A stretch of DNA of 64,000 bases, from assembly GCF_017347095.1 (NCBI RefSeq), contig NZ_JADPRZ010000005.1, forward strand, positions 62,001-126,000, read 5' to 3'. The notes beneath the pieces were generated by a model. The model did no database searches. It was not told where the DNA came from and was given only the letters and a program-made list of their open reading frames with translations. A program made the translations under genes and the position numbers. Shown one piece after another: positions 1 to 20,862 of the stretch; within the stretch, counting starts at the first letter, position 1; each line of letters opens with the position of its first letter. The stretch is from Sporosarcina sp. E16_8. GTDB taxonomy: Bacteria > Bacillota > Bacilli > Bacillales_A > Planococcaceae.

Positions 1-217
1 CAACAGGCGCAGTAAACAATGCAAGCTGTCCCGCTATTTCTGGCACTGCTGCCGCATTCACTCTATAAAAAGGGATTGGAAAGTCAGCTTTCAGTGCATT
101 CACTTGCGGGTATAAGCCCTCACAGACTGAACAGTTGTCAGTTTTCACGAATAGAAGCAGCTTTTTTTGTTGTTCAATTATATCAAGCCATGCCTCGAAT
201 GAGTTAATTTCTATCAT
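1..217 (-). CDS. Thioredoxin-like protein, 3' end outside window
   Basis: Reading the minus strand from an ATG at 217 gives an open frame that runs off the left edge. It starts MIEINSFEAWLDIIEQQKKL and carries a CxxC motif (NCSVCEGLYP) about 31 residues in, as in small thioredoxin-fold proteins. The following FYRVNAAAVPEIAGQLALF segment fits a thioredoxin core. The ribosome site GGAGGGATATAGAA sits just before the ATG. The gene lies 21 bases downstream of ccdA on the same strand, so an operon that moves electrons through the membrane to an extracytoplasmic or cytoplasmic thioredoxin is likely. The exact subfamily cannot be named because the C-terminus is missing. Confidence 0.8.
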   Translation of the reverse strand, partial: MIEINSFEAWLDIIEQQKKLLLFVKTDNCSVCEGLYPQVNALKADFPIPFYRVNAAAVPEIAGQLALFTAPV

Positions 218-238
218 TTCTATATCCCTCCATTTAAC

Positions 239-949
239 TCAAAAACCCTGAAAATCTCCAAAAATCGGGCTAAGCAAGCTTGTTAAATATGTCAATCCAT
301 CGAAGAACAGCAAAATTCCGAATGCGATCATGACGCCGCCCCCAATTTTCATAATCAGGCCACTATTCTTACGAATCCATCCAAGACGCGTTATAAAGAA
401 CGATAAAACAAAGAATGGAATCGCAAAACCGAACACATACATCAGCATATAGATAACTCCTGATCCAGGGTTTGTCGCTGCAAGTCCCAAGATTACCCCG
501 ATTATCGGTCCTGAACACGGCGTCCAACCAGCTGCGAATGCAAGCCCGATCAATGCGCTCCCAAAATAACCTGAAGGGCGGTTTTTAAACTGTAGTTTCT
601 TTTCGCCCATAAGGAATTTAGGTGTGTATACACCTGCAATCATAAGGCCAAATAACACCATAAAAATTGCGCCACCTTGTCTGAGTATTACTTGGTTTTC
701 TATGAAAAATGTCCCTACAAACGATGTAGCGAAACCAAGTACGACAAAAATAACTGAAAATCCGATTAAAAAGAACAGTGTATGTAATATTCCGTTTCTG
801 TTCATGCGTTTCGAGTCCGATTTTAAATCATCCAGTGACATGCCCGTAATATACGAAATGAATGCTGGGTACAAAGGCAATGAACACGGTGAGATGAAAC
901 TTAAGAAACCAGCACCGAAAGCGAGAAATAAATTTAAATCTGTTGCCAT
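239..949 (-). CDS. ccdA: Cytochrome c biogenesis / thiol-disulfide interchange protein CcdA
   Basis: A 236-residue, six-helix membrane protein of the CcdA/DsbD-beta family. The family carries reducing equivalents from cytoplasmic thioredoxin across the membrane to extracytoplasmic thiol proteins, for example in cytochrome c maturation and spore development. Both membrane cysteines are present: Cys22 in FISPCSLPLYP at the end of helix 1 and Cys145 in GWTPCSGPIIG. The length matches B. subtilis CcdA (about 235). The start has a fair ribosome site (AAAGGGGAGA). It is followed closely by a thioredoxin-like gene at 1-217, which is the expected partner type. Confidence 0.93.
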   Translation of the reverse strand: MATDLNLFLAFGAGFLSFISPCSLPLYPAFISYITGMSLDDLKSDSKRMNRNGILHTLFFLIGFSVIFVVLGFATSFVGTFFIENQVILRQGGAIFMVLFGLMIAGVYTPKFLMGEKKLQFKNRPSGYFGSALIGLAFAAGWTPCSGPIIGVILGLAATNPGSGVIYMLMYVFGFAIPFFVLSFFITRLGWIRKNSGLIMKIGGGVMIAFGILLFFDGLTYLTSLLSPIFGDFQGF

Positions 950-5433: not shown

Positions 5434-7075
5434 ATCTTGCTAACCTAGATTAATCAAGCACTCAATTCTTTTTTCATCAACTTGATACTTTCATTTAGGT
5501 TCTATCCATTGATTTAGCCATTTAATTTTCAATTTCGGCTTATGGTCATACCTATTGATTAACCATTTTCTTGCATAACACACTTGTAAGAAAGGCTTGA
5601 AAACATCCATTTTCACTGGGCCATTTCCGGTCCGCTTATGGCGAAATATTCACGATAGCTTAACCTACGGGCATGTGGCTTGATATGACGATGTCATTCC
5701 TCCATGGTCATCCTGTTGCAAATAGTTGCCTGTCGCCTAACTACAACATTCAAGTGATAAATGTAGCTGCTTTATAAAAATAGTAGATCTATCTAACTAA
5801 GGATTCAGTCAGCAATTGAATCCTGTCTTATATACACTTTGAGCTTCGACCGTTCAACAGCAGTCTCAGCTACTTAATAAGCTAAACAGCACTTGAGCCA
5901 TACTTTTGCCAGGAGCGAATACCCCAACTAGTTACCGGGTACGCCATCTATCTTTAGCGAATAAAGAGCAGGATGGAATGCCTAACTTCCAAATTTATTA
6001 GACTGTTTGACAGACGTCGAACGGGACGACCTTCATGGGGATAGAGTGGAAGGGTAGCTAATTTTGTAACTGGCATCCTTTTTTACATCTTCCGCAAATG
6101 CGCAAAACACATCTCGGGAAATGTCACTCAATATAATTGAAAGGGGTCAGCTTCAATATAGACCAGTCCGTATCATCTATTATTTATTTATCTATCTTTT
6201 CTTATTTTATTTCATCGAAAATAACGTGCCCAAAAACCATGGACATGCATATTACAACAGTTGCTAAATAACCTAGTCGGTATTCAATAACACGCAAAAA
6301 AACAAAAGTGATAGCAGTACTAATAAATAAAATGTCCATGATAGATATTAAATTTACCCCCTATATATATTGCTTTCCTGAAAACCAAAAATATTTATTG
6401 TTCCCGGCATTTGGATTTTTTTGATTGATCATGGAGTAGTATTTTATTTTTATATAAAACACCTTCCCCCTAACCGTTCAGCCTGTGAAGAAATAATTGG
6501 ATGCAATTTGCTTGTAATGCCCATATACTATGGTGGTTTCACATCATAGACGTTGTATTATAAATTTTTAGTTACTGCATCATCAACTCCTACAAATCAG
6601 TTCTTCTCCCACTTTTTCTGCAGTAAAATAAGTATACCGATCAATCCCAACGTGCCGAATACAACATAAATGATAGATGAACAATAACGAGATAGCTATC
6701 ATTCAACTAATAATTATGACTTTCGAATTGCATTTAATCCCTCCTGAAATTTTATTTGGCTATCTGTGTAAGTGATTTAATGAAGACTGCTATATCCTTC
6801 TGCTATTTAGATACATTTATTTGTATTATATTATAATAAACCTTTTTCCTTATGGTTAGAGCTCTATCCCAATTGCCCGTCTTGAACTATTATCCTAGGT
6901 TGAAGCATATTCTCGTTATTTTCTACGTAGAATTATCCTCGAACTTCTGACATATCTCTGCATTTACAGTATTTCATAATACGTCTTATTATGAAGAAGG
7001 AAATTTCTATCCACATTTATATAGTTTACATAATAATATTATGCGTTAAACTTATTTTGGTTTTATGGGATTGTC
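5434..7075. other. Long gene-poor stretch with ORF remnants
   Basis: About 1.6 kb without a convincing long gene. AT-rich runs, one possible 45-residue membrane protein (6202-6339, minus), and a broken small membrane ORF. The broken ORF has a good ribosome site and ATG near 6734 (minus) that hits a stop after eight codons. A hydrophobic frame ending IGILILLQKKWEKN then continues to a stop near 6600 in another frame. No tRNA or obvious structured RNA was seen. It looks like decayed accessory DNA. Confidence 0.5.
6202..6339 (-). CDS. Possible 45-residue membrane protein
   Basis: From ATG at 6339 the frame reads MDILFISTAITFVFLRVIEY and ends MVFGHVIFDEIK. It predicts two hydrophobic helices joined by a short loop around RVIEYRLGY. 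A purine run AGGGGG lies 17 bases before the ATG, too far for an ideal ribosome site. The family was not recognised. It could be chance in AT-rich DNA, but the regular hydrophobic pattern favours a real or recently lost gene. Confidence 0.35.
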   Translation of the reverse strand: MDILFISTAITFVFLRVIEYRLGYLATVVICMSMVFGHVIFDEIK

Positions 7076-7097
7076 ATGCCTGCCCCTTCTGTAATCA

Positions 7098-7145
7098 AAA
7101 TTAACCCAAAAACGAGTCGATATTCGCTCGATTTTGGGTTAATTG
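7098..7145 (-). terminator. Terminator after the HTH/RHH gene
   Basis: A near-perfect stem AATTAACCCAAAA / TTTTGGGTTAATT with inner CGAG/CTCG pairs lies just beyond the stop codon of the minus-strand gene at 7155. Confidence 0.8.
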
Positions 7146-7154
7146 GGATACATG

Positions 7155-8138
7155 TCATTCCGTTTTTTCTTCTCTTTCAAACTTCTCACGTATTGCTTCT
7201 TCCACATATTCACTCATTGAAAGGTCTTTTTCTTTGGATATCTCCTGCAATTTATCAAGCAGATTGTTTGGTAAATCAAATGTCGTACGCCGATAGCCGC
7301 TAATTAGCATCCACTCAGCTTCTTCGATCACAACATCACCTAATACGAGAAATTGCTTGATAATACTCGCTGTAAGGATGTCCGGAACCGGTATAGGAAG
7401 CACGATTTTACCGCTTTTTATCGAGAGTTCGATATGAGTTTCTTGCTCGCGGATACGAATATTTTCAATCCCCCACACTTGGTATACGAAATCAAGGAAA
7501 TCAAAGGACTCTTGCATATCTTTCGGCAGTAAAAAGTCTGTATAGCCCCTTACTCTACTGTTCGGTTGATGGATTGGATAAGCCGCTTCGTACTGATAGG
7601 CATGGATGCCGTTGGTATAAGGAATCCATGTTCGTGATTGCAAATAGAAGCCCCACTCTTGGTCGTCGTTGCGCAATACACGCATCTCTTGCCCCTGTTG
7701 TGTACGAAACAGCTGGTAAAGTACGATGTCGAATTTAGAATCATAATACTCAACCCGTGTCCCGCGTACAGATGCGGTACGTTCGATTTCTTGTCGGATC
7801 CAGACGGCCGTTTCATCCGGAATGGAATAGATTGTGCGCTCATCTCCAACAGGCAATTCATCCACAGGTAAAGTAGTCTCTCGAATCAAGGCGTAAATAC
7901 GTTGCGGTGTGACCCCTAATTGCTTAGCGAGTGTAGATGGCCGTAGACCAAGGGGCTGATGGCGTTTGCGTTCGATCGCAAGTGCATCTACCTCTTCTTG
8001 TTTGTACCTAACTTCACGTATTAGACGGTGTGGATTTGCTATTTTGATGATTTTCTTTTGTTTAGCGTAGTGATACACAGTGGCCTTCGAAATGCCAAGT
8101 ATGTCCGCTACCTCTTGTCTGGTATACCAATTTTTCAA
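7155..8138 (-). CDS. Double-HTH protein with C-terminal ribbon-helix-helix
   Basis: About 327 residues from a TTG start at 8138, preferred because AGGGGAG lies six bases before it. The longer ATG at 8216 has no ribosome site. Near the N-terminus, YTRQEVADILGISKATVYHY is an excisionase/MerR-like helix-turn-helix. A second one, LRPSTLAKQLGVTPQRIYAL, follows about 60 residues later. The middle is a globular region of unknown type. The last 50 residues (TTFDLPNNLLDKLQEIS...MSEYVEEAI) look like a CopG/Arc ribbon-helix-helix. Three DNA-binding modules in one chain suggest a site-specific DNA-binding factor. It is divergent from a tyrosine recombinase across an AT-rich gap, which suggests a directionality factor or regulator for that enzyme. 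Function unproven. Confidence 0.7.
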   Translation of the reverse strand: MKNWYTRQEVADILGISKATVYHYAKQKKIIKIANPHRLIREVRYKQEEVDALAIERKRHQPLGLRPSTLAKQLGVTPQRIYALIRETTLPVDELPVGDERTIYSIPDETAVWIRQEIERTASVRGTRVEYYDSKFDIVLYQLFRTQQGQEMRVLRNDDQEWGFYLQSRTWIPYTNGIHAYQYEAAYPIHQPNSRVRGYTDFLLPKDMQESFDFLDFVYQVWGIENIRIREQETHIELSIKSGKIVLPIPVPDILTASIIKQFLVLGDVVIEEAEWMLISGYRRTTFDLPNNLLDKLQEISKEKDLSMSEYVEEAIREKFEREEKTE

Positions 8139-8833
8139 GTCAAACTCCCCTGTCTGCCGAATATGTATCGCATAAATTATAGGTATTCCAGTGCGTTTTT
8201 TTGAGTGAAAATACAAATAAATAGTGCTTTTTTTGATTAATTTTACGTAATTCCTGATTATTTTTATATAGTAATTCGAATAAAACGGATTGTAATACGA
8301 TTTTAACTAATCTCTTTTTTTTACGTATTCCTAGAAACAGTTATGTATGCGTAATTAATTGTGAGATGGAAATAATGGAATAAATCGTATTTATATAGTC
8401 AACAATAGTAATAGTATAGCGTGTTTAAAATTCAATAGCAACTACTTACTATCTAAGAATACATTCATTATAAATATAAATAATAGATAACATAAACAAA
8501 GGGACTCTTTTTTTATGTTATATTGAATCTGTGGTAAAATGGATTTATAAGTAGAAAATGAACTTGCTTGAAGTAAATATTATTGTAATTCTAAATAGAG
8601 TAATACATAGTACTTAAATTCCCATAAAATAGAGTTGTCGCTACTATAATTTAATATCGGAAATAAACAGGTGTAAACGTAATTTTTTAGATAGGTATTG
8701 CAAAACTGGTTTACTTATCGATTGATTCTCATTAGTTCGTCTATAGTCACCTAGTATAGGGTTAAAACTATTGATTGTGTTTCAAAACAACATAACGCTT
8801 GTTTTGCGGATTGTAAAAGGAGAGTTGTATACA
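8139..8833. other. AT-rich divergent intergenic region
   Basis: Very AT-rich spacer between the HTH/RHH gene and the recombinase. It contains several copies of a short ACGTA-centred word: TTTTACGTAATTCCTGA near 8241, TTTTTTACGTATTCCTAGA near 8317, TGCGTAATTAATTG near 8348 and AAACGTAATTTTTTAG near 8677. These could be binding sites for the divergent DNA-binding protein or a recombination site. No ORF was seen. Confidence 0.4.
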
Positions 8834-9979
8834 GTGTTTTCATTGAGTGAAAAAAAACAGTTGCAAATGACTGTTTTGAAAAAGGGTTTACAGGATTTAA
8901 CAACTTTACCTTCGCTTCAAAACCGGTTAGATGAAGCCGAAAAAGAGGGACAAACGGCTTTTCATGATTTTACGGATCCGGAGATGATAAAATGGTTTCT
9001 TTACGAACGCCGCCACTTGAACCAAAAAAACGACCGAACGGAGAGGACGGTCCGAGAGTATCAGCGTGAGCTTCTGCTCTTCATCGAACAGCTCTTTACA
9101 TACAGCGCAGAAATAGATGTAGATGTTGCCTATATAATAGAAGGTTCTTTGTTTAAATCACTTCAATCACGTCATTTAAGGAGGTATCAGGAGTGGTTAG
9201 CAACTGAAAGTCCTTATGTGATAAGTAAGGGGTCATATTCCCCCGCCACTCTGGAACGGAAAACAACGATTCTCAAAGCTTTTTTTGCATTTCTGCATAA
9301 GGTGGGCTATATCCAGGAACCGATTCACAAGGGACTACGCATTGCATCTGTTCGAAAAGATGACCGTCCTAACCGTGATTTGGGGCCAGTTGATGTCGTT
9401 ATACTGCTAGATACATTTCGAGATATTCAGCAGCCGGTCATGTTTACCATTATCCATGTCCTCACAACCACTGGGATTCGGAATGAAGAGTTTTGTACCT
9501 TGCAGGTAAAGGACTTGAAGCTAGATGCAATTCAGGGCGGCTACTATTTAGATGTATTGGGGAAGGGTAACAAGAGACGGCATGTACCGCTGAAAGAGAA
9601 AGTGGTAGACAGCATTCGCGGTTTTCGTCAAGCAAGGGGTCTACTACCGATCGAGCAAGCACAACTAGAAGATCCGCTCTTTACAACGAATACAGGTCGA
9701 GCGTATTCCCCCTCGTATTTATCGCAATACGTAAAAAAGGAAATTACCAGCCTAGAACAGCTACAGTTATCGGATCAAACGCTGAAAATTACCCCTCACG
9801 TATTCCGCCATGCTTTTGCGATTATCTCAAAGCTAAATGGTGTAGATATTTACGATATTATGCGGTCACTGGGGCATGAGAAGATTGAAACGACCATGAT
9901 TTACTTGGAGAAGGTCTTCGAGAAGGAACGACATGCCATTCATTCGTGGAAATCGGAAGGGTTTGGGGAGTATATTTAG
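8834..9979 (+). CDS. Tyrosine recombinase / integrase
   Basis: About 381 residues from a GTG at 8834, placed after AAAAGGAGAG. An upstream TTG at 8771 would give 402 residues but lacks a ribosome site. An N-terminal SAM-like core-binding domain is followed by the catalytic domain with the full set of active residues: Arg216 (TTTGIRNEE), Lys244 (GKGNKRR), His322-x-x-Arg325 (HVFRHAF), His348 (SLGHEK) and nucleophile Tyr357 (TTMIYLE). It resembles XerD-like integrases of mobile elements rather than the housekeeping XerC/XerD, because of its extra N-terminal 80 residues. It is divergent from the HTH/RHH gene and is followed by its own terminator. No other mobile-element genes are adjacent. Confidence 0.9.
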   Translation: MFSLSEKKQLQMTVLKKGLQDLTTLPSLQNRLDEAEKEGQTAFHDFTDPEMIKWFLYERRHLNQKNDRTERTVREYQRELLLFIEQLFTYSAEIDVDVAYIIEGSLFKSLQSRHLRRYQEWLATESPYVISKGSYSPATLERKTTILKAFFAFLHKVGYIQEPIHKGLRIASVRKDDRPNRDLGPVDVVILLDTFRDIQQPVMFTIIHVLTTTGIRNEEFCTLQVKDLKLDAIQGGYYLDVLGKGNKRRHVPLKEKVVDSIRGFRQARGLLPIEQAQLEDPLFTTNTGRAYSPSYLSQYVKKEITSLEQLQLSDQTLKITPHVFRHAFAIISKLNGVDIYDIMRSLGHEKIETTMIYLEKVFEKERHAIHSWKSEGFGEYI

Positions 9980-9992
9980 AGTGTGAACAAGG

Positions 9993-10033
9993 ACAGCCCC
10001 TAATGTCGTTTAAATTCCGACTTTAGGGGCTGT
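9993..10033 (+). terminator. Terminator after the recombinase
   Basis: ACAGCCCCTAA and TTAGGGGCTGT pair, with GTCG/CGAC extending the stem around an AT loop, 13 bases after the recombinase stop. Confidence 0.75.
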
Positions 10034-10143
10034 AAGTTGTGACGCTTTTTATTTGTCTGTAAAGCTATGATTGTAAATGAGTTTTCTTCACTAACTGACA
10101 GCTAGCTCTTTACTTAACTATCACTTATTTCAATAAATCGAAT

Positions 10144-13100
10144 TTAATTATTTTGCTCAAGGCATTGATAAACCGCCATCAAATCTCGTTTAGTTAACTC
10201 ACGAATACGATTGAAGATTGGAATATCAGCAACTGCCTCAGTATATAGGTTTTTCTCAACAACATCACTTACTTTACCAGTGAGCCATGTGTCAACTGCT
10301 ATCCCTTCGACAACCTCCTGAAGTCCTTCATCAGTGATGCCACTTTCATTACAACTCACACATGGAATCGTTAATTTATATACGCCATCATGGAGATTAT
10401 CTTCTGTAATGACTTTCTTTCCTTTACAGAATGGACATGGATAACTTTTTTTGATCTTATTAATTTGGGTAACAATTTTTTTATATCCAAACGCTTCATA
10501 GACATAGGTAAACTTTTTGTATTTTCCATTGGTGAAATACTTATCAATGATCGTTTCTCTTGTCTCAGTGATCTTATCAAAATCACAGATTGTAACCTGG
10601 TTGTTCGTGCTGATGGATTCGATATTGCTGCTAATTTTACCCCAGAATGGTAAGGCATTTTGTAATACCACTTCATAACCAGCAAAGCTTGCCATTTCCA
10701 ATTCAACTATTTTCAGCGCGACTTGTGTTTCCCTAGGCAGTAAAGAGACATCTTCCGTCAAAGTCATGTCTCCACCGACAATAGATTTCAATTTCACCAG
10801 TTCCGGTAACGCACCTACTGTTTTCAATGCTTGATCAAGCGGTTGGTTAATAATCTCACGAATATCCGTATCGCCAAACTTGAGCTGTTGATGATGGTTT
10901 AACACAGAACCTTTGCAAATCGGGCATGTAATCATTTTTCTAGATGCTTTCATATCCTCTTTTATAATCGATTTCGAAATAGACATATACATTCCAATTA
11001 TGCTATTAAAGCCTTGCCATGTTCTCTGCGTCTTGGCTTCTTTATCATAAAATGACTTTTCCAAATACCCGTATAAAAAGGTATGCTTTTCTTCATCCGT
11101 CATCTCATTATAACTTTTACTCATATCATGGCCGAGCTCATTCTTAATTTCATCAAAAATGAATTCCAATCTTGAATATTGATAATGTTTTAATACCTCC
11201 ATCACATCCGGATGCAATAGACCCTCCCAGAATGGAGCGTTTTTGTCTTGAATCACAACATCTATATCAAACTTTCCAATCATCCGACGGCCCGAGCAGC
11301 TTGGACAATGATTGTCTTGATTATAGAAATCGAAGCTATGCGTATTTTTATTGGTCGGATGAGTTGCCACAATATGGTTGATCAATCCACCCATTTCATA
11401 GAGAAAACTATATTGACTATACAAGTGTCGTTCCAGATCAATGGCGATTACGGGTGCAATTGTTTCAGATTCGTATTCACCATAAATCAAACGTGCCATT
11501 GATGATAAACTTTTTAAGATACCACCCTTATAGACGTTTTCTGCATTTTTAAAATAGGCAATCTGATTTTCTTTTAAATAGTTAATACCATTTTGTTGAT
11601 GGATAGTTGAAGGGATTTGCAATGGAGTAACTCGATCCGCACTGTTTTGCTCTCGATAATAATCCTCATGACTGACAACATCAAGACGTTGAACAGGTGC
11701 AAGCTGTCTTTTACCAAAATCAACGATAAAATCAGAGCTTTCCATCATATAAGAGTTATGTTCAATCATGATCATTGAGACAGATTCATCCTGAAGAATG
11801 ACCCTAATACTATCAATGAATTGATTTAAAATGTTTTGTGATAAACCTTTTGAAGGCTCGTCAAAAATAAAAAGCGTATGAGGGTTTCTTGAGTTGGCAA
11901 ACAGCTCAGAAACTAAATGGACACATTGAAATTCACCATTCGATAAGGACTGTGTTTTTCTTTCCAACGTCAAATAACCGAGTCCAAGTTTGATCAATAA
12001 GCTCAAGCGTTTATAAGCGATGTCATCATTCGGCAGTTCGTCAATAATATCTTCAATCGAGCGCTGAAAAATATCTTCTATATCTTCGCTGTACTTTGTG
12101 AGTTTCCTTTTAATATCAAGAAAAGTCGCAACTGTTGACCGACTGGTAATCGATTGGTTTCGATTTTGTCCTACCATTACCAGTTTATCTTTTGGATATC
12201 GCTTCAGAAAATCCTTGGCTATACACTCATTGACAAGTGTAGATTTACCACATCCAGACTCACCGGTAAAGGTTACAAGTCTATTTTGGGGAATTTGAAT
12301 TTCAGCCATTTGAATAGTACGACAGTAAAGATCATGAAACTGATAGTATTCTGTTGGCATTGCCTGATTTCGTTCCGAAGTGACTGGTTTTGGACGTGGG
12401 GATTCTTCAACAATTTTTCCGCCGTATTTACCACTACCAGGCCCAAAGAACAATTGCTCATCCGTTGCGTCGAGCACCGTGTCAGAATGATCAATAAGCC
12501 AAATTTGATTCTTATAGCCCAATTGTTTAATCTGATCTAAAATTTTCAATAGTGTTTGGTGATCAAGACCCACGGAGATTTCATCAATAATAATAACGGT
12601 ATTTTCACTTGTTGCCATGAATTCCGCCAAGTAAAGTCGTGTTAATTCTCCACCTGACAATGTACCCATAATACGATTTAAAGTTAAGTAACCAATATTC
12701 ATATTGATGATATTTTTAAGAATATGTTGTTTAGCTTCACTAATATGTAATTCTTCTCCAAGGGAAAGAATAGATTCAATGCTTAAGTTGTTGATATCGG
12801 AAATACTATGTGGTTGATCCAATAAATCTATCTTATATTGCTCAACCTCTGGATTATAGCGCCTGCCTTCACACTTTTTACATTCGACATTTTTAGTAGT
12901 CCCGCGTCCTTTACACGGAGGGCACCAGCCTAGCTCATTATTAAATGAAAAAACTTCTGGAGACAGATTGAATTTTTCAGCAAGAGTAACACGAATGTCT
13001 TTAAAAACACCTGTATGTGTGCCAATTGTAGAACGTGGATTGGAAGAAATCGCTGATTTTCCGAGGAAAAGGACTAAAGGCATTTCTTCCATCTTTATGG

Positions 13101-13314
13101 CACTGAAATTGGTCTCCATTATACCGGGAAATAAATACTGATATTCAGCCTTCGGCAATAAGGAAACGAGACGCTTCTTGGATTCTTCACCAATTGTTTG
13201 ACAAAAAGTTGTTTTCCCAGAACCAGACAAACCAGCAATTCCTAACGATTTATCCACTGGTAGTGCTGCATCTAACTTGTCAATATTGTTCGCAATTAAT
13301 TGATTTATCTTCAT
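10144..13314 (-). CDS. Three-module UvrA-like ATPase
   Basis: About 1056 residues from the ATG at 13314, which follows GGAGAGGGTATTACT. An ATG 39 bases upstream has no ribosome site. Module 1 has Walker A GLSGSGKTT (28-36), a zinc knuckle CPPC...CKKC (131-148), signature LSGGE (219) and Walker B IIIDE. Module 2 has Walker A GESGCGKST (351-359), no zinc knuckle, a degenerate signature LSNGE (457) and Walker B IFDEP. From about 580 a third module has UvrA-like zinc pairs (CPSC 670, CPIC 797, CPFC/CVSC 960-988) but no Walker A, and LLPRETQ where a signature would be. UvrA detects bulky DNA damage, and short paralogues give drug self-resistance. This long form is not the housekeeping uvrA, as no uvrB is adjacent. 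Its role is unknown. Confidence 0.8.
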   Translation of the reverse strand: MKINQLIANNIDKLDAALPVDKSLGIAGLSGSGKTTFCQTIGEESKKRLVSLLPKAEYQYLFPGIMETNFSAIKMEEMPLVLFLGKSAISSNPRSTIGTHTGVFKDIRVTLAEKFNLSPEVFSFNNELGWCPPCKGRGTTKNVECKKCEGRRYNPEVEQYKIDLLDQPHSISDINNLSIESILSLGEELHISEAKQHILKNIINMNIGYLTLNRIMGTLSGGELTRLYLAEFMATSENTVIIIDEISVGLDHQTLLKILDQIKQLGYKNQIWLIDHSDTVLDATDEQLFFGPGSGKYGGKIVEESPRPKPVTSERNQAMPTEYYQFHDLYCRTIQMAEIQIPQNRLVTFTGESGCGKSTLVNECIAKDFLKRYPKDKLVMVGQNRNQSITSRSTVATFLDIKRKLTKYSEDIEDIFQRSIEDIIDELPNDDIAYKRLSLLIKLGLGYLTLERKTQSLSNGEFQCVHLVSELFANSRNPHTLFIFDEPSKGLSQNILNQFIDSIRVILQDESVSMIMIEHNSYMMESSDFIVDFGKRQLAPVQRLDVVSHEDYYREQNSADRVTPLQIPSTIHQQNGINYLKENQIAYFKNAENVYKGGILKSLSSMARLIYGEYESETIAPVIAIDLERHLYSQYSFLYEMGGLINHIVATHPTNKNTHSFDFYNQDNHCPSCSGRRMIGKFDIDVVIQDKNAPFWEGLLHPDVMEVLKHYQYSRLEFIFDEIKNELGHDMSKSYNEMTDEEKHTFLYGYLEKSFYDKEAKTQRTWQGFNSIIGMYMSISKSIIKEDMKASRKMITCPICKGSVLNHHQQLKFGDTDIREIINQPLDQALKTVGALPELVKLKSIVGGDMTLTEDVSLLPRETQVALKIVELEMASFAGYEVVLQNALPFWGKISSNIESISTNNQVTICDFDKITETRETIIDKYFTNGKYKKFTYVYEAFGYKKIVTQINKIKKSYPCPFCKGKKVITEDNLHDGVYKLTIPCVSCNESGITDEGLQEVVEGIAVDTWLTGKVSDVVEKNLYTEAVADIPIFNRIRELTKRDLMAVYQCLEQNN

Positions 13315-13353
13315 AGTAATACCCTCTCCATCCTCTAAATTTAGTATTGCCAT

Positions 13354-13691
13354 GTTTGCTAAATAATAATTTTGACAAAACTTGTTTGTTAACTCAATTC
13401 TTTATCCCATTAAAAATGACGCTTTCCATGTTCCGGAAAAGCGCCCTATTGCTGAAGAATGGTTTATTTGAATAAAATGATTACTACATATTCGACACTA
13501 CTTATTTAGAACTAACTAGGTGGTATACCTAACCATAATAACGAACAAAGCTGTATTGGAAGAAAACCCTATTAGTTAAGTGCCGAATATATAGTAATAA
13601 TTATCAATTTCTGATTGATTGATCTATTCAAGTGCCCACTCAATAGGTTTGGCCTTAAAAGCAGGTATTATAGAGGTTCAAGAAATCAATT
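13354..13691. other. Intergenic region with repeat copy 1
   Basis: Holds a GC-rich possible hairpin (GACGCTTTCCATG...AAAGCGCC, near 13418-13445) and dispersed repeat copy 1 (13484-13596). No gene was seen. Confidence 0.5.
13484..13596 (+). repeat. Dispersed repeat copy 1 (MITE-like, internally deleted)
   Basis: About 113 bp. The left end reads TATTCGACACTACTTATTTA and the right end AAGTGCCGAATATATAG, matching both ends of the larger copies at 17540 and 24379. The shared words TAACTAGGTGGTATACCTAA and ATAACGAACAAA follow the left end. Nearly all of the GC-rich middle is missing. Confidence 0.75.
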
Positions 13692-14108
13692 TTACAGTTC
13701 TGCTAACACTCTCTCGAGCTGCTCACCCATTTGTGTCCAAGCATATTTAGCTCCCTCGATAGCACCCTGGCGAGCTTTTGTTTCTTCACTAAATCCAGTT
13801 TGATCGAAATGTAGTTGGACAGTTCCATCTGAACCTTTTTTCAAAGTCCATGTAACAGTAGTGCTTTCTCCAGCACTTACCCAAGTGTAAGATAATTTAT
13901 AAGGCTCGTCCACTTCGAGTACCTCGCTGTCTACAATGCCATCCCACCATTCGTTAGGCTCTGTACGAAACTGAAATTTATGTCCAACGACTGGTTTAAA
14001 ATCATTATCCCATATCCATTTCGCAAGCGTATCCGAATCTGTTAAAGCGTTCCATACCTGCTCGATGGAACTTGTAAATTGATAATCTAAAGATACATCT
14101 GATTTCAT
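13692..14108 (-). CDS. SRPBCC/AHSA1-domain protein
   Basis: A 138-residue START-like fold protein of the AHSA1 (Hsp90 ATPase activator homologue) type. The N-terminal VSLDYQFTSSIEQVWNALTD, KWIWDNDFKP and the tryptophan-rich ESTTVTWTLKKGSDG strand are typical. Members bind hydrophobic ligands or have uncertain roles. The start ATG follows GGAGGAAAAAAA and overlaps the stop of the ArsR gene by four bases (ATGA), so the two are translationally coupled. The ArsR-AHSA1 pair is a recurrent operon in Bacillales, in which the regulator probably controls its partner. Confidence 0.9.
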   Translation of the reverse strand: MKSDVSLDYQFTSSIEQVWNALTDSDTLAKWIWDNDFKPVVGHKFQFRTEPNEWWDGIVDSEVLEVDEPYKLSYTWVSAGESTTVTWTLKKGSDGTVQLHFDQTGFSEETKARQGAIEGAKYAWTQMGEQLERVLAEL

Positions 14109-14431
14109 TTTTTTTCCTCCAATATAAGATTTAATTTAGCAATTCTTTCTTTCCAAAATCCTTCGTAAAAAGATACCCAATCTTGAATTTCTTTCAACGG
14201 GGTGGGATTTAGTCTATATCTTGTTTCCCTACCGACTTTTCGAGCGATTACGAGATCAGCATCTTTAAGGATAGCCAAATGCTTAGAAACAGCTGTACGC
14301 CCCATTTGAAAATGAACCGTTAGCTCATGTAGGGGCAATTCTTCAACATCTGCCAACATTCGAAGTAATTTTCGCCTTGTTGGATCGGCAACAGCGTCAT
14401 AAACATCCCTCACTTGACTTTTTTCGTTCAA
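14105..14431 (-). CDS. ArsR-family winged-helix repressor
   Basis: About 108 residues from TTG at 14431, which has GGCGGGGG five bases before it. A GTG two codons earlier would sit on the ribosome site. The winged helix is clear: AVADPTRRKLLRMLADVEEL, then recognition helix FQMGRTAVSKHLAILKDADL and wing VGRETRYRLNP. No metal-binding CxC pair is present, so a metal sensor is unlikely. It is the first gene of the operon with the AHSA1 gene and is probably autoregulated through the operator in its promoter (14502-14551). Confidence 0.9.
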   Translation of the reverse strand: MNEKSQVRDVYDAVADPTRRKLLRMLADVEELPLHELTVHFQMGRTAVSKHLAILKDADLVIARKVGRETRYRLNPTPLKEIQDWVSFYEGFWKERIAKLNLILEEKK

Positions 14432-14501
14432 AATCACCCCCGCCTTTTCATTAATATTTCCTGTAAGGTCACCGATTAAACATCATGATAACCTAATAGG
14501 A

Positions 14502-14551
14502 CACCATTTGTTGTCTTATTGATTATAGGGCACCAAATGGTGGCGTGTCAA
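14502..14551 (-). promoter_or_regulatory. Consensus promoter with operator for the ArsR operon
   Basis: On the minus strand TTGACA (14546-14551) and TATAAT (14522-14527) are perfect sigma-A hexamers 18 bases apart. The spacer contains the palindrome CACCATTTGGTG (14531-14542). A related word CACCATTTGTTG recurs near the expected transcription start (14504-14515). Two operator half-copies over a consensus promoter fit repression by the ArsR protein. Confidence 0.8.
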
Positions 14552-15054
14552 GTTTCCTTGCTATTCTAATATCTTGCCCTTTAATGGAATAAGGAATGAT
14601 TATTTGATCTCTTCCGATAGCATTCTATATAGAGAAGCTCTAGATAAAATTGTGAACCCCGAAATCATGCTAAGTTTGTTACGGTATTTCATTTAGTCTC
14701 CTGCAGTTAGCATTCTGATCGTATTGTATGTAGTGATTTATTAGTACGTTTACTAAAAACCTATTTTTGAACCTCGATGATAATGAGTCGTTCCTACAAG
14801 GTATGCATACAGAATATTTTTTCAGAATCCGTATAATAGAGTTTAGGAAGTAGACCAATATCTTGATACGTGTGGAAAAATAGAATTGCAGAATTTATTT
14901 GTTGCGGTTTATCCAGTTTAAGTACATATTTTCTGAAACAGTATAGACAAGGCCATCTGTCGTTCCACTCTTCATATTATTAATTTCTTGTTTGTTGAGG
15001 TTAAGTACTTCTTTACCTTGCAGGCTCCTACATATATGATTAACTTTTTATTTT
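14552..15054. other. Intergenic region with a coding remnant
   Basis: About 500 bp without an intact gene. On the minus strand near 14890-15040 a frame without a start reads LQGKEVLNLNKQEINNMKSG and ends SENMYLNWINRNK, which looks like the C-terminus of a lost protein. Family not recognised. Confidence 0.35.
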
Positions 15055-15543
15055 TTAGTCGCATAATGACTCTCCTTGTTGGCATTGAAAAGTCATTTTC
15101 AGAAATTCAAAACGATTACCATTTGTATCCTGCATAAAAGTCTCAACGTCTTCAAATCCAATTTTTCTATATACCTTTATTGCCCTCTGATTGAAAGTTG
15201 CTACTGATAATGTTATCTTTCGTGGTTTATATTTTATTTTGGCAAAATCTAAACCTGCCTTCAAAAGTTCTAATCCATTTCCATTGCCGGTTAAATTCGG
15301 TTTAATTCCTAATCCTATATCAATAGTATTTATTGCTACTCTATTAAAACTAAAGAAACCTATAGCATCATTATCCTTAGTAACAAAAAAGTTTGAGTCA
15401 CCTCGTTTTTGGTCATCTAAGAACTCGGCTAAATCTTCTTTATCTTCTTCCATATTGTAAAAAGAGTATTCAGCATCATAATGCCAATTAAATGCAATCT
15501 CTTCCGCATGTTCTTGTGTCATATATTCAAACTTATACCCCAT
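15055..15543 (-). CDS. GNAT-family N-acetyltransferase
   Basis: About 162 residues from ATG at 15543, chosen because AAGGAGGGATATTT precedes it. The longer frame has no ribosome site. The GNAT fold is visible: IGFFSFNRVAINTIDIGLGI (strands 4-5), an acetyl-CoA pyrophosphate loop KPNLTGNGNGLELLKAGLDF with a modified Q/RxxGxG/A motif, and AVKVYRKIGFEDVE-like RAIKVYRKIGFEDVE near the end. The substrate cannot be inferred. The gene stands alone on the minus strand. Confidence 0.87.
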   Translation of the reverse strand: MGYKFEYMTQEHAEEIAFNWHYDAEYSFYNMEEDKEDLAEFLDDQKRGDSNFFVTKDNDAIGFFSFNRVAINTIDIGLGIKPNLTGNGNGLELLKAGLDFAKIKYKPRKITLSVATFNQRAIKVYRKIGFEDVETFMQDTNGNRFEFLKMTFQCQQGESLCD

Positions 15544-15954
15544 AAATATCCCTCCTTGTATTACTACTACAACACCATCCATTTACCTCGTTCAATTAAC
15601 CTGCGACGCTAGTTACTTTCACTTTTATAAAAATTAGAAGTCGTACCTACAATTTCAAGTGTAACGTAGATAACTTAAACACAATAGATTATTTTCTTTA
15701 CATTCACTCAAGTTCGAATTCCGCGGGAGGTCTGATTGTTAAATGAATTTCCCTTAATAAATGAGGTTTTTTCATGGAAATGTGTTAAGATTTAATAGTC
15801 TAATAATAATTAACACTAAATTATAGGCAATATAATTTTTCGAGGTAGATATTATGACAAACAATAGAAATGTTGGCGTGAAAAATTACAAATGGAAAAC
15901 GTCTAACTAATTAAACTATATAGCGTTTTCCCACATTTGAAAGGGGAAAATCAT
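15544..15954. other. Intergenic region with possible short leader ORF
   Basis: No gene above 60 codons. From 15854 to 15910 (plus) a 18-codon frame starting MTNNRNVGVKNYKW follows GAGGTAG and stops 44 bases before the hydrolase start. It may be a leader peptide or chance. Confidence 0.35.
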
Positions 15955-16512
15955 TTGAATCAAACACTATTAATTATTGATGCTCAACAAGAATTAATAG
16001 ATGGGAATCAAGAAGAAAGTCCGGTTTTCAATAAAGAACAGCTTATTAGGAATATCAATAAAGCGATTGAAAAAGCAAGAGAATCCGAAGTTCCAGTTGC
16101 ATTTGTAAGGGATCTCGATGTTGCTGAAGGTAAAGGTGGAGGATTTCAAGTTCACAATGAAATTAATGTACCTGCGAAGGCAAAGATTTTCGATAAAACT
16201 GCAACGAATTCCTTTCATGGGACAGATCTTCTAAATCATTTACGATCTCAACTAATTGAACATGTTGTTGTTATGGGCTGTAAAACACAACACTGTATAG
16301 ATAGTGTCGTCAGAACAGCCACAATTAGCGGTTTGGATGTAACATTAGTTGGCGACGGGCATTCAACAACGGATAACGAGGTTTTAAATGCGGAGCAAAT
16401 CATAAATCATCATAATAGTACTCTTCATGGACATTACAATGTCGAACACTTTTCAATTGTCAGAAATGTAGAGGAAGACTTGTTTTGTCCAAACCATGAC
16501 TCGTATAGGTAG
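15955..16512 (+). CDS. Isochorismatase-like cysteine hydrolase
   Basis: About 185 residues from TTG at 15955, which follows AAAGGGGAAAATCA. An in-frame TTG at 15937 lies on the ribosome site. The cysteine-hydrolase triad is visible: Asp in LLIIDAQQEL, a lysine in IFDKTATNSFHGT and Cys in VVVMGCKTQHCIDSVVRTA. The family includes isochorismatases, nicotinamidases and other amidases. The active-site loop here is like that of the YecD/RutB-like broad group. The gene stands alone with a strong terminator after it. The substrate is unknown. Confidence 0.88.
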   Translation: MNQTLLIIDAQQELIDGNQEESPVFNKEQLIRNINKAIEKARESEVPVAFVRDLDVAEGKGGGFQVHNEINVPAKAKIFDKTATNSFHGTDLLNHLRSQLIEHVVVMGCKTQHCIDSVVRTATISGLDVTLVGDGHSTTDNEVLNAEQIINHHNSTLHGHYNVEHFSIVRNVEEDLFCPNHDSYR

Positions 16513-16584
16513 AATACAGCTAAAAGCTATACTAAAATATGCGGCTTTTATTCAACAATAATAGAATGCTTTTATGAAATGACT

Positions 16585-16628
16585 AAAGCCTTATTTCTCG
16601 CTTACAACACCGAGAAATAAGGCTTTTT
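16585..16628 (+). terminator. Terminator after the cysteine hydrolase
   Basis: AAGCCTTATTTCTCG and CGAGAAATAAGGCTT form a 15-bp perfect stem with a T-rich tail. It may also serve the converging VOC gene. Confidence 0.85.
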
Positions 16629-16708
16629 ATAATGGATTTTTTTAACGCCACCCCTTTAGGTTAAAAGTGATAGACTGCTTGATTAAGAATGCACTATTTT
16701 TATTTAGG

Positions 16709-17167
16709 CTAGCAATCCGCCTTCTCCCAATCACTCAAATACATATTACTGTTTAAGCTAGGATCGTTTTTCTCCACTTTACAGATGAATTCTAAACTAT
16801 TTCCATCTGGATCATTAAAATGTATTTTGGCATGACCATATCCCTCATTAGGCATAACGAATGGTTCGATTGGTTCAAAACCAAACGCTTTTCTAGCCTC
16901 GATATTTCTTTCAGCAAGCCATTTGAGAGAATTCCGTAGATCTTCTAATTCTACATTGAAAGCAATATGTCGGATTGATGGGTGATAGTCAAGATTTACT
17001 TTGTCCGTTTGCCATAAGCCTAACCAACTTTTGTCTTTTTCTATCCAAAGGAATGCTACTCGAGCATCTATTCTGTGGTCAAATTCTAAGCCTAAACTTT
17101 CATAAAATTTAATTGAACGATCTAGGTCACTTACGGGTAAATGCGCTTCATATAATCCTTTAATCAT
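16709..17167 (-). CDS. VOC-family (glyoxalase/dioxygenase-like) protein
   Basis: A 152-residue vicinal-oxygen-chelate protein. The paired beta-alpha-beta-beta-beta modules begin LYEAHLPVSDLDRSIKFYES and IRHIAFNVELEDLRNSLKWL, and end HFNDPDGNSLEFICKV. Likely metal ligands are His9, a His in RHIAF and the Glu in LEFICK. The family ranges from glyoxalase I and fosfomycin thiol transferases to dioxygenases. The sequence does not carry clear fosfomycin-resistance hallmarks, so no substrate is assigned. The ATG follows AGGGAGATAAT. Confidence 0.85.
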   Translation of the reverse strand: MIKGLYEAHLPVSDLDRSIKFYESLGLEFDHRIDARVAFLWIEKDKSWLGLWQTDKVNLDYHPSIRHIAFNVELEDLRNSLKWLAERNIEARKAFGFEPIEPFVMPNEGYGHAKIHFNDPDGNSLEFICKVEKNDPSLNSNMYLSDWEKADC

Positions 17168-17293
17168 ATTATCTCCCTAACCTAGTTTTCTGTTTTACTG
17201 TTGAATTCCATATTCGTAGCAATGCATTTCTGGTTTGCATGAATTCTCCCTCAATCTAAAGCCTTTAGACCCCTTTAGTTAAAGCAGCCAGTA

Positions 17294-17437
17294 TCAAAGC
17301 CCTGTTCGTGAGATTTTTACTCCCTGGTATCTTACTTCACCGTCAATAGATTGCGCTTCGGATGGAGAGAGACTTACGCTTTGCACTTGATTTAAGGTTG
17401 ACCATGGTGACCGTGCTTTCAAATCGACACTACTCAA
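17294..17437 (-). CDS. Possible 47-residue protein
   Basis: From TTG at 17437, with GGAAGGG eight bases upstream, the frame reads MSSVDLKARSPWSTLNQVQS and ends GEVRYQGVKISRTGL. The composition looks protein-like, and the good ribosome site argues for a real gene or a recent remnant. No family recognised. Confidence 0.35.
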   Translation of the reverse strand: MSSVDLKARSPWSTLNQVQSVSLSPSEAQSIDGEVRYQGVKISRTGL

Positions 17438-17539
17438 ATTAAACACCCTTCCGGAGATTGAATTTTTAGTTATATCACACTAGTACTCTATCATAAAACT
17501 ACATAACTTGTTTTAATTTTAAGTACAATTCGGACACTG

Positions 17540-17800
17540 TATATACGGAACTACTAATTTAGAATTAACTAGGTGGTATACCTAACCCGTATAACGAACA
17601 AATCTAGCGAAGCAACGACACTAATGAAAGGCAGCCCAATGTCGCCGCGTCCTGCGGCAAAGGCTGCACACCTGCATCCTGCAGGCGCCGAAGCAATAAG
17701 ACTGACAGTGTTCTTCTGACGGGCTTATTGCGTAAGGCCATCACCAAGCGACAAAGCGGTGTTAAAAGAACATTCTAGTTGTTAAGTGTCGACTATATAG
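17540..17800 (+). repeat. Dispersed repeat copy 2 (MITE-like)
   Basis: About 261 bp. The left end is TATATACGGAACTACTAATT and the right end TAAGTGTCGACTATATAG. The middle, from ATAACGAACAAATCTAGCG to GAAGCAATAAGAC, is almost identical to the reverse complement of copy 3. It includes the hairpins CCTGCA/TGCAGG and GCCGC/GCGGC. It lacks the AGGAGGG hairpin of copy 3. Confidence 0.85.
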
Positions 17801-17919
17801 CGATGTCATTTATAAATAATCGATTCTAATTAAGCCGTTACCTCAAGGATAGACTGTTTTTTATAGTTAAATGACAAAATGGTTATTACAAATACGCTAA
17901 ATGCAAATATATATGTAAT

Positions 17920-18651
17920 TCATACCATTTTTAAAACATAGTGCAAGTATCTACGAACTTGGATGATCCGTTCAGTCAATGAAGCTGATACGATTATGTA
18001 GAATTTCTCACTTTCATCCGTTTTGTATAAGTTGCGCACAGTCCTTCTTTCATCTGGCCAGAATCCAACCAATGCATTTGTTTCTTCCATTTCACGCGCT
18101 ATATCATATAAATAGCCATTAGATGGAGACCAACCAAACAAACTATTCAATTGTTCCTGAACCTCGGCCATGTGAAAAGATGTACGATTTAAGCTAAGTC
18201 GCAGTGCCATAAACCGTACAACGTCTTTTACAGATAACAACTTTGATATAAATGATCTAAAATCTTCGTGTAATGGTTCAATTTCGACTTCTGCTAGTGA
18301 TCCATTTTTAGTTAGATAATAATAGAACCGATCTATGACAGTCGAAACTTCGCTAAATCGAAGCGCGTAAATAGTTTCGTATTCCTGAAGACGAGCTTTT
18401 CCCTTTTTAGTAATTTGAAAGAGCTTTTTGCGGCCTTCTGTTCGAGAATGCAGAAAACCGTCGTTCTCTAATGTGTTAGCAGTGCGTGCGACATACTCAT
18501 AGGAAACGGAACGTCCTGGGAATTCTAAGTTGAAGTGTTCATGAAGTGCTTTTGAATAATTTTCTTGTTCCACAATAGATCTTAATAAGAACAAGGATAG
18601 AGCATCACCAACACTAAATCCAACAGCTTGTTGAAACGAAGGTAACTTCAT
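17920..18651 (-). CDS. PadR-like winged-helix regulator
   Basis: A 243-residue protein with two wing-like segments. The N-terminal part (SVGDALSLFLLRSIVEQENY, then YEYVARTANTLENDGFLHSR, then FQITKKGKARLQEYE) has the PadR pattern. A second segment near the C-terminus (GYLYDIAREMEETNALVGFW and NLYKTDESEKFYIIV) looks like another winged helix. The tandem arrangement is unusual for PadR proteins, which usually have one domain and a dimerising helix. The ATG follows AGGAGTTG. No co-transcribed target gene is adjacent, so the regulated function is unknown. Confidence 0.6.
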   Translation of the reverse strand: MKLPSFQQAVGFSVGDALSLFLLRSIVEQENYSKALHEHFNLEFPGRSVSYEYVARTANTLENDGFLHSRTEGRKKLFQITKKGKARLQEYETIYALRFSEVSTVIDRFYYYLTKNGSLAEVEIEPLHEDFRSFISKLLSVKDVVRFMALRLSLNRTSFHMAEVQEQLNSLFGWSPSNGYLYDIAREMEETNALVGFWPDERRTVRNLYKTDESEKFYIIVSASLTERIIQVRRYLHYVLKMV

Positions 18652-18957
18652 AAATGGACAACTCCTACTATTTTAAATAATCATACACCTCGCTAGTGCA
18701 TATATCAATACAATTATCGGTCGCGATGTATCTCCTTCTTTTAAAGACTTTCCCTTGCTTTAGCCATCAATTTAACACCTGATCTTAAATGAAGCTAACT
18801 AACACATCATACGGGAATATATCAATTGCAGATGAATATACAATTAGCGAGCAATTTCTTTGTATATGCACTAGCGAGGTTTCATATATTAAGCGTATAT
18901 GCACTCTTTAAAATACTCTTAATTTTCAATTGTTTAACTCCGTATTTCCTTTTCAAG
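18652..18957. other. Intergenic region, nothing recognised
   Basis: AT-rich spacer. No gene, repeat or RNA was seen apart from the terminator that begins at 18958. Confidence 0.5.
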
Positions 18958-18989
18958 GTAAAAAAACCGGTTAGCGCACACCGGTTTTC
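18958..18989 (-). terminator. Terminator after the yqjP-yqjQ operon
   Basis: AAAACCGGT and ACCGGTTTT form a 9-bp stem around TAGCGCAC, just beyond the SDR stop on the minus strand. Confidence 0.8.
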
Positions 18990-19006
18990 ACAAAATATGA
19001 TTCTTT

Positions 19007-19759
19007 TTATTTCTTCATAAAATACTTACGCCCTAACCGTTCGACAAGCGTCGGCGCAACTGCGTGCATTCTACTCGTGATTCCCATATACCAAGGTAAA
19101 TTCACATCGCGAACTGGTTTCCTGACTGTTTTAATCACCGTATCGACCACAGTTTCAATGGTCAATAAGTGCCTACCTAGCGATGTACGATAAGTACCTG
19201 TTTCATCCGCGAGATCCAGAAAGGGAGTGTCAATCGGACCCGGGTTAATTGTAGTTACATGGATATCGAATGGAGCCGCTTCCATTCGAAGCGCATTCGT
19301 ATAGCCGATAATCGCATGCTTTGAGGCAGCATAAATAGAAGCCTTGGGTGTTGCCACTTTTCCAGCTTGAGAACCGAGGAAAATCAAATGACCGCTGCGC
19401 CGCTTAATCATGCTCGGCAATAGAAATTTAGTGAGCTGCATGGGTGCGATTACGTTGACAGCCATCATACTTTGAATCGCTTCGTCAGACGTTTCGTGCG
19501 CGAAATCGAACGAGCCAACGCCCGCCGAAAAGATGACAACATCGGGTGAACCAATCCTCGCCATCAACTGCTTAACGTCTTCACTTTTCGATAAATCTGC
19601 AGGTATCGTATGCGCGCCTTCACGTTGCAACTCCTCTAAAACAGTAAGTGCCCTGCCTGTTGCCCACACCTCGTGTCCTTCTGCCAACAGCCGTTTCGAC
19701 AGTGCATATCCAACCCCGCTAGTTGCGCCTGTTATGAGAATCGATTTAGGCTTGCTCAT
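19007..19759 (-). CDS. Short-chain dehydrogenase/reductase (YqjQ-like)
   Basis: About 250 residues from ATG at 19759. This start overlaps the last codons of the upstream MBL gene, and the longer frame would overlap it by 47 bases. Classical SDR features: cofactor motif TGATSGVGYALSKRL (TGxxxGxG), NNAG counterpart SAGVGSF, and catalytic Ser-Tyr-Lys with YAASKHAIIGYTNALR. The fold continues to a NPGPIDTPF loop. In B. subtilis yqjQ follows yqjP in the same order, which supports the name. The substrate of YqjQ is not established. Confidence 0.88.
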   Translation of the reverse strand: MSKPKSILITGATSGVGYALSKRLLAEGHEVWATGRALTVLEELQREGAHTIPADLSKSEDVKQLMARIGSPDVVIFSAGVGSFDFAHETSDEAIQSMMAVNVIAPMQLTKFLLPSMIKRRSGHLIFLGSQAGKVATPKASIYAASKHAIIGYTNALRMEAAPFDIHVTTINPGPIDTPFLDLADETGTYRTSLGRHLLTIETVVDTVIKTVRKPVRDVNLPWYMGITSRMHAVAPTLVERLGRKYFMKK

Positions 19760-20690: not shown

Positions 20691-20862
20691 ATGGAAAATC
20701 CCCTTTATAAATATGAATGAGTATTCAGTACATTGTACCTTTTTTATTGGATAGCGTCATCTTTTGAATCAATTCACTACCATGAAGTTTAACAATGGTA
20801 TAATGAAAGTATCTATTCTCAAATTTAATAGCACGATATAGAACTACTAGGAGGGCTAAAGT

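Follow-up and report, generated by a model that had tools for sequence, protein, structure and literature searches.

Nucleotide excision repair protein UvrA has two halves, I and II, and the 64,000-nucleotide stretch of Sporosarcina sp. E16_8 analysed here (contig NZ_JADPRZ010000005.1, positions 62,001 to 126,000; hereafter the window) encodes on its minus strand a UvrA-like protein of 1056 residues that does not fit this layout. An earlier note, made from the sequence alone, described two compact ATP-binding cassette (ABC) modules followed by the fossil of a third half-UvrA. What, then, is the C-terminal part, and what might such a protein do? Our analyses agree with the note that this part derives from UvrA and has no ATP motifs. 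However, they find in it the remains of two halves, I' (about residues 570-915) and II' (about 916-1056), not of one, and the protein is therefore very probably a tandem double UvrA, ordered half I - half II - half I' - half II'.

A protein of four UvrA-like modules

The gene and its modules (A to D) are located as follows.

10144..13314, minus strand: UvrA-like gene, very probably a tandem double UvrA, 1056 residues plus stop (open frame, Pfam, NCBIfam, alignments of loci)
12370..13314, minus strand: module A, residues 1-315; half I-like, with intact ATP site and zinc knuckle and no PF17760 or PF17755 match
12871..12924, minus strand: zinc knuckle of module A, C131/C134/C145/C148
11695..12369, minus strand: module B, residues 316-540; half II-like, with intact ATP site and without zinc module
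10570..11607, minus strand: module C, about residues 570-915; apparent half I remnant without ATP motifs (half I profiles, shuffle test, Foldseek)
11296..11307, minus strand: first cysteine pair, C670/C673, of UvrA zinc module 2, before the insertion domain; invariant, aligned to UvrA
10936..11268, minus strand: UvrA DNA-binding (insertion) domain PF17755, residues 683-793, above the curated cut-off
10915..10926, minus strand: second cysteine pair, C797/C800, of UvrA zinc module 2, after the insertion domain; invariant, aligned to UvrA
10147..10569, minus strand: module D, about residues 916-1056; apparent half II remnant with zinc module 3 and a portion of the signature domain, lacking ATP motifs
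10351..10437, minus strand: zinc module of D, C960/C963/C985/C988; invariant, the two pairs linked by a strand hairpin in the model of residues 541-1056

An alternative in-frame ATG lies upstream at 13353; the start at 13314 is preceded by a G-rich, ribosome-binding-like stretch, and its residue 1 is where matches begin in most loci from other genomes. A Pfam scan of the whole protein returned ABC_tran and, at residues 683-793, UvrA_DNA-bind (PF17755), and phmmer against solved structures aligned residues 659-822 to UvrA 285-454. The protein stayed under the family cut-offs of the UvrA model TIGR00630 (256.6 bits over four stretches, cut-off 729.8), the canonical UvrA model NF001503 (258.2 bits, cut-off 1147) and the double-UvrA model NF001885 (155.7 bits, cut-off 3054; 1056 residues against 1809 model positions), and the 25 best matches shown for Pfam or NCBIfam included no model dedicated to the family. 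Chance similarity to UvrA is ruled out by the Pfam, NCBIfam and phmmer matches together with the half profiles and Foldseek results given below.

To define the motifs, we aligned 101 rows comprising the window gene, a partial second copy, 79 of 80 loci (the remaining one, with a broken frame, was excluded) and 20 genome regions, some of them possibly the same as loci in the set. The first two modules are as the earlier note had them, with a zinc knuckle in A only and LSNGE in B. Two P-loops (G....GK[ST]) lie within residues 1-545 in all 101 rows. In module A, GLSGSGKTT, SGGE, DE244-245 and H276 are invariant, as are GESG.GKST, S.GE, DE485-486 and H519 in module B, so that A and B together have the Walker A, signature, Walker B and H-loop motifs of the two ATP sites of a canonical UvrA. 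The signature of module B is S(T/N)GE instead of SGGE (LSTGE in 92 rows, LSNGE in nine, the window gene included), and position 355 is cysteine in 97 rows and serine in four; otherwise, the Walker A, Walker B and H-loop residues of both modules do not vary. Profiles of the two halves, built from 17 UvrAs with their insertion domains removed, scored module A as half I (140.7 vs 108.5 bits for half II) and module B (residues 316-560) as half II (87.2 vs 80.2 bits for half I), the latter by a small margin. The UvrB-binding domain PF17760 was missing from the complete match lists of A and of C-D; the same model scored 142.5 bits in the genome's own UvrA, our positive control. Judged by sequence, module A thus reads as a half I without its DNA-binding insertion, A-B would follow the normal order of the halves, and this first protomer looks like an ATPase that lacks the DNA-reading insertion.

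The C-terminal part has the opposite make-up. The PF17755 match is confined to module C and lies just above the curated cut-off (24.9 vs 23.2 bits; 26.4 bits with the C-terminal part alone). P-loop, S.GE signature and Walker B DE are absent from this part in all 101 rows, in line with the missing Walker A of the earlier note, which was also right to place LLPRETQ where LSGGEAQ would be expected. At the presumed H-loop, D911 and F912 are invariant, and a histidine lies nearby in just 17 rows. Module C (residues 561-912) scored 65.7 bits with the half I zinc and DNA-binding profile vs 13.1 bits with the half II zinc profile, and its zinc and DNA-binding segments follow the UvrA order, as noted before. 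The comparison of profiles with UvrA proposed in that note was run against 60 column-shuffled controls with the cysteines held fixed. The head of module C, SLSSMARLIYGEYES...IAPVIAID, aligned to half I SLSSYARQFLGQMDK...LSPAISID with z 5.6, a score reached by none of the 60 shuffles (half II, z 0.4), and module D aligned to the zinc module and signature domain of half II with z 4.1, again reached by none.

Structure prediction, likewise proposed, leads to the same family. An AlphaFold model of residues 541-1056 (115 sequences; mean predicted local distance difference test score, pLDDT, 76.8; predicted template modelling score, pTM, 0.64) retrieved UvrA-family structures at Foldseek ranks 1-39 (E down to 1e-15), the first other fold appearing at rank 40 with E 0.14. 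By VIA, residues 612-1056 (model 72..516) are collinear with UvrA 73..846, with 9gxl_A as the best match (Z 9.6, root-mean-square deviation 7.1, 310 aligned residues); the first 26 rows are UvrA (Z at least 6.0), and the next fold reaches 5.4. The tip of the zinc hairpin of module D has a pLDDT below 50. Taken together, these results suggest that the last 490 residues are a complete second UvrA protomer, in which a remnant of half I is followed by one of half II, and C + D looks like a DNA reader without ATPase that keeps the insertion domain and both zinc modules.

Several results weigh against this assignment. Module D also aligned to half I (z 2.6, one of 60 shuffles as good), and its plain profile scores showed no preference for half II (5.1 vs 6.1 bits for half I). 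The narrower targets of the 60-shuffle test were picked after a weaker run on wider targets, in which one of 40 shuffles did as well as D, one as well as the head of C and none as well as the zinc part of D. No signal came from the tail of module C (residues 830-915): 50 of 60 shuffles scored as high against half I and 45 of 60 against half II, as did 25 of 40 in the wider-target run. The VIA matches (Z 8-10, root-mean-square deviation 6-15) are modestly above background, residues 541-620, which hold the P-loop equivalent, have a pLDDT below 50, and the full-length AlphaFold model was poor (mean pLDDT 64.9, pTM 0.41) and unusable for the arrangement of the protomers. Since its sequence signal is absent, the tail of C is placed by predicted structure and order; otherwise, the order and identity of the modules are well supported.

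Some of these features would also fit a single UvrA2/DrrC-type protein that was rearranged without duplication, its half I insertion domain having moved to the C-terminus. Such a protein would have its sole UvrA_DNA-bind match at 683-793 and none in module A, and the zinc module missing from B would be present in D, as observed. However, module C also has the half I segment SLSS.AR...IAPVIAID, and the C-terminal model is collinear with UvrA from 73 to 846. Because this segment recurs in C and both A and C have half I-type zinc sites, half I seems to be present twice, and we regard the rearrangement as unlikely and retain the tandem double UvrA.

Maintenance and spread of the family

Is the second protomer decaying, as the word fossil implied? 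Twelve zinc-type cysteines (131/134/145/148, 670/673, 797/800, 960/963 and 985/988) are invariant in 101/101 rows. The ratio of nonsynonymous to synonymous substitution rates (dN/dS) over 14 pairs was 0.010-0.098 for module A, 0-0.305 for B, 0.032-0.276 for C and 0.018-0.291 for D. The C-terminal part is under purifying selection and is maintained rather than decaying. With invariant zinc cysteines and a dN/dS of at most 0.305 in every module, a fossil or pseudogene is ruled out, and this part of the earlier description falls. Stops within the match, or split matches, occur in some genomes (G130, G224, G185 and G262).

The distribution of the family was determined with the C-terminal 497 residues as query. 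Of 261 genomes in the taxonomic family to which the window belongs, 77 have a member (75 of the 251 of high quality), and these spread over 8 of the 19 genera. Among 398 genomes of the class, 20 matched: 11 over nearly the whole query at 72-100% identity, the others being eight canonical-size UvrAs at 25-29% and, in genome G596, one short fragment of 60 residues at 47% identity, with stops. In 398 genomes of the phylum there were 11 matches, three of them members that align over nearly the entire query and the other eight UvrA frames of canonical size at 25-29%. Members were found in Bacilli only, and no intermediates between this family and UvrA appeared among these class and phylum genomes. 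In a scan of genome contigs, the best 80 of 119 relatives were 78-95% identical over the full length and came from Paenibacillus, Listeria, Sporosarcina, Neobacillus, Peribacillus, Psychrobacillus and others.

We then compared, in 14 genomes, the identity of the canonical UvrA, which is present in 14/14, with that of the C-terminal part of the UvrA-like protein. Two genomes of the same genus had UvrAs at 95-97% and C-terminal parts at just 84-85%, and five genomes of other families had UvrAs at 69-71% and C-terminal parts at 77-78%. On a FastTree gene tree of 80 rows, the Sporosarcina rows are nearest to the window gene and genus labels are scattered, with 36 changes for 16 groups (minimum 15). 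Given that UvrA and the C-terminal part diverge out of step and that a minority of genomes carry the gene, lateral transfer is the simplest account and is well supported. What tells against it is that the remaining seven genomes show the mismatch weakly or not at all: 96-99% for UvrA vs 93-94% for the C-terminal part in two of the same genus, 80-81% vs 69-84% in four of the same family and 79% vs 80% in one of another family. One scan of viral contigs with the C-terminal alignment found no viral carriage, and none of the 43 phage records that matched covers 80% of the protein. Among 763 matching plasmid records, one covers at least 80% of it, a Niallia megaplasmid.

The upstream gene pair and the promoter region

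The earlier note reported no adjacent biosynthetic cluster. Indeed, no such cluster or known resistance gene stood out by eye among the recurrent neighbours, but the note missed two small genes directly upstream, which lie with their candidate control elements as follows.

13363..13392, minus strand: promoter-like site of the UvrA-like gene, TTAACA-18-TATTAT (consensus scan; no excess over shuffles)
13418..13445, minus strand: terminator-like hairpin between the SRPBCC and UvrA-like genes (consensus scan; one found vs 0.9 in shuffles)
13692..14108, minus strand: AHSA1/SRPBCC ligand-binding-type protein, 138 residues (PF08327, 7.1e-22; linkage)
14105..14437, minus strand: ArsR-family regulator, 110 residues, no cysteine (PF01022, 4.3e-11; NF033788; linkage)
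14522..14551, minus strand: promoter-like arsR site, TTGACA-18-TATAAT (12/12), with CACCA-TT-TGGTG in the spacer

The relatives of the SRPBCC protein include Mll2253 (5.7e-19), BH1534 (8.6e-13) and, weakly, YndB (1.8e-5) and CalU16 (E 0.004). Across the 80 loci, ArsR (at least 70% identity) lies upstream in 30 and SRPBCC (at least 56%) in 29; the next commonest neighbour family, by sequence a generic ABC ATPase, occurs in 15 loci at scattered places. In the genomes of the window's own family, a set that may overlap with the 80 loci, 49 of the 77 carrying the UvrA-like gene have a co-oriented SRPBCC gene (E at most 1e-40) no more than 5 kb upstream, and 15 of the 74 with SRPBCC have no UvrA-like gene. 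The linked state needs 13 changes on the gene tree, so the pair was joined or lost repeatedly. ArsR and SRPBCC are fused in one frame of 250-257 residues in three loci (L059, L079 and L091).

The outer flanks of the ArsR-SRPBCC-linked loci mostly differ. Of the first 30 kb of the window, two loci share 10066-14567 only (L039) and 10071-14591 only (L050), with one gap each, and L041 shares the UvrA-like gene only. The nearest relative, the Sporosarcina locus L114, shares 7021-14562 and 17915-24472, and L011 shares 8661-13137, up to the end of its available sequence. A tyrosine recombinase (PF00589; 8771-9979, plus strand) is convergent to the UvrA-like gene; it lies inside the stretch common to L011 and L114 and outside the sequence that matches in L039 and L050. 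A block of some 3.35 kb (14563-17914), with open reading frames (ORFs) of GNAT, isochorismatase and glyoxalase type, is absent from L114, where its flanks are about 50 bases apart.

The terminator-like hairpin was also seen by eye upstream of the gene in L039, L050 and L114. Other loci have a different promoter-region core, found with at most five mismatches in 40 of 81 upstream regions and in no shuffles; 15 of these regions have the ArsR-SRPBCC pair and 25 do not. The hairpin, the separate promoter-like site and a core kept with or without the pair together indicate that the UvrA-like gene is probably its own transcription unit. An ArsR operator shared by both units was considered and rejected, the conserved core of the UvrA-like promoter being by eye unlike the palindrome in the arsR spacer.

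Elsewhere in the window, a 510-residue ORF (43199-44731, minus strand) reads like a TnpA-type transposase of the IS200/IS605 kind with a TnpB-like protein after it in the same frame. Bacillaceae-1 RNA (RF01690) occurs twice in opposite orientation, at 17620-17685 (plus) and 24519-24584 (minus), with 58.7 bits each. T-box leaders (RF00230) lie at 23227-23440 (plus) and 39135-39402 (minus), and the ORFs downstream of them read by eye like proC and methionyl-tRNA synthetase. No Rfam element reached its gathering score at the UvrA-like gene itself.

Possible function and comparison with known systems

UvrA is active as a dimer, in which communication between the ATP sites and the damage-reading domains of each protomer is a standing question. 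On the model of UvrA, the chain would fold as an asymmetric single-chain pseudo-dimer: A and B would combine into two composite ATP sites, C and D would hold and read DNA, and hydrolysis of ATP in A/B would power binding or release at C/D. As it has no UvrB-binding domain, the protein would act alone, without the handover to UvrB that UvrA performs. Like Ecm16 and DrrC, it might recognise DNA that carries a small molecule and expel or shield that molecule, with the ArsR-SRPBCC partner sensing or binding the compound. We infer the pseudo-dimer, the division of labour, the DNA-drug substrate and the regulation by analogy, and a role in antibiotic or DNA-ligand recognition may follow on the same footing. 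That the gene often lies next to genes for a small sensor and a ligand-binding protein suggests that it is a mobile determinant of resistance to poisons that bind DNA. The explanation as a whole, a tandem double UvrA that clears DNA-bound natural products, seems to us evenly poised between right and wrong. The fuller picture of a laterally mobile resistance cassette of Bacilli, with an asymmetric single-chain UvrA dimer split into ATPase and DNA-reading parts and an ArsR-SRPBCC pair that senses or binds a DNA-targeting natural product, is tentative, and we hold it a shade likelier to fail than to stand. The explanation is weakened by the 28 of 77 genomes that have the UvrA-like gene without an adjoining SRPBCC gene, which with the intervening hairpin leaves co-regulation of the two no more than possible, and by the lack, noted above, of a visible biosynthetic cluster or known resistance gene nearby.

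Other roles have to be weighed. The patchy, lateral distribution would suit a protein of phage defence or of competition that targets foreign or modified DNA, and PADLOC matched the protein to mad3 (E 1e-32) and mad8 (1.1e-17). However, the best mad3 and mad8 stretches fall in the ABC modules, which are common to UvrAs, and the recurrent direct-upstream neighbours, which were not scanned against PADLOC, are just arsR and SRPBCC. An NCBIfam scan of five window neighbours gave a single mad match, MAD1 (NF047737) in a helix-turn-helix ORF at 7155-8216, with 30.7 bits vs a cut-off of 80. We judge a defence role improbable. A nucleotide excision repair accessory that works with UvrB and UvrC as UvrA does is more doubtful still. 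Overall homology to UvrA favours it, and its partners probably exist, since a canonical UvrA was found in every genome checked. Yet the UvrB-binding domain that the positive control revealed is missing from A and C-D, the presence of the gene in 77/261 genomes is patchy, and SOS control was rejected, with LexA boxes (at most two mismatches) in 6/81 upstream regions vs 4.0 expected from shuffles. Least likely is a zinc- or metal-responsive system in which ArsR is a metalloregulator and the twelve-cysteine protein buffers or senses metal, for although ArsR exceeds the cut-off of the metalloregulator subfamily NF033788 (76.9 vs 55 bits) and the twelve cysteines are invariant, the window ArsR has no cysteine, and UvrA has structural zinc positions at the cysteines of C and, in local alignments, at those of A and D.

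If the tandem double UvrA with its proposed split holds, the protein would represent a minimal UvrA in which the functions are separated. Having an ATPase-only and a DNA-reading-only protomer in one chain would allow a direct test of their communication, with no need for engineered heterodimers, and the linked ArsR-SRPBCC pair would point to an inducible resistance determinant.

The canonical UvrA of the same genome has the domain order that the UvrA-like chain presents twice; unlike it, the UvrA-like protein falls below the TIGR00630 cut-off and has no UvrB-binding domain match. The double-UvrA model NF001885 (PRK00635, 1809 positions), which we take to be chlamydial and a tandem UvrA-UvrA duplication, comprises two full-size copies, whereas here both protomers are stripped and complementary. 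Two plasmid loci of lactic acid bacteria offer a parallel arrangement, with a small regulator directly upstream of a UvrA-like gene of 752-754 residues; there, the regulator is MarR and the UvrA single, in contrast to the ArsR-SRPBCC pair and double UvrA described here. Among the literature matches listed, which were open papers only, we recognised no description of this architecture or cassette.

The closest functional parallels are the class II UvrAs, defined in one study by the absence of the UvrB-binding domain and zinc module 1 (PMC10192343). In the same study, Ecm16 is UvrA-like, lacks the UvrB-binding domain and protects a uvrB knockout; its insertion domain is required for DNA binding, and drug-bound DNA is coupled to ATP hydrolysis (PMC10192343). 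Two further papers describe UvrA-like genes as marks of clusters for DNA-intercalating drugs (PMC10413001) and self-sacrifice proteins, CalU16 included, that protect against calicheamicin (PMC6804068). In a tree that included 13 canonical UvrAs and six UvrA-like proteins of shorter length, which we assigned to class II solely from size and identity, A-B formed its own clade on a branch of 5.75 changes per column, so long that its placement is unsure. With A-B on so long a branch of its own, the tree shows no close kinship with class II, a point against the explanation proposed here. Like Ecm16, DrrC and Deinococcus radiodurans UvrA2, the protein is UvrA-derived, keeps ATP sites and an insertion domain, and has neither the UvrB-binding domain nor its zinc module. 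The eight class II proteins tabulated in the study are single UvrAs of 756-874 residues (PMC10192343), whereas the present protein has 1056 and a second protomer; also unlike class II, its insertion domain (683-793) is in the ATP-dead module C only, with none in the ATP-competent module A. Collectively, this family lies outside the cut-offs of the UvrA and double-UvrA models and shares with class II the missing UvrB domain but not the layout.

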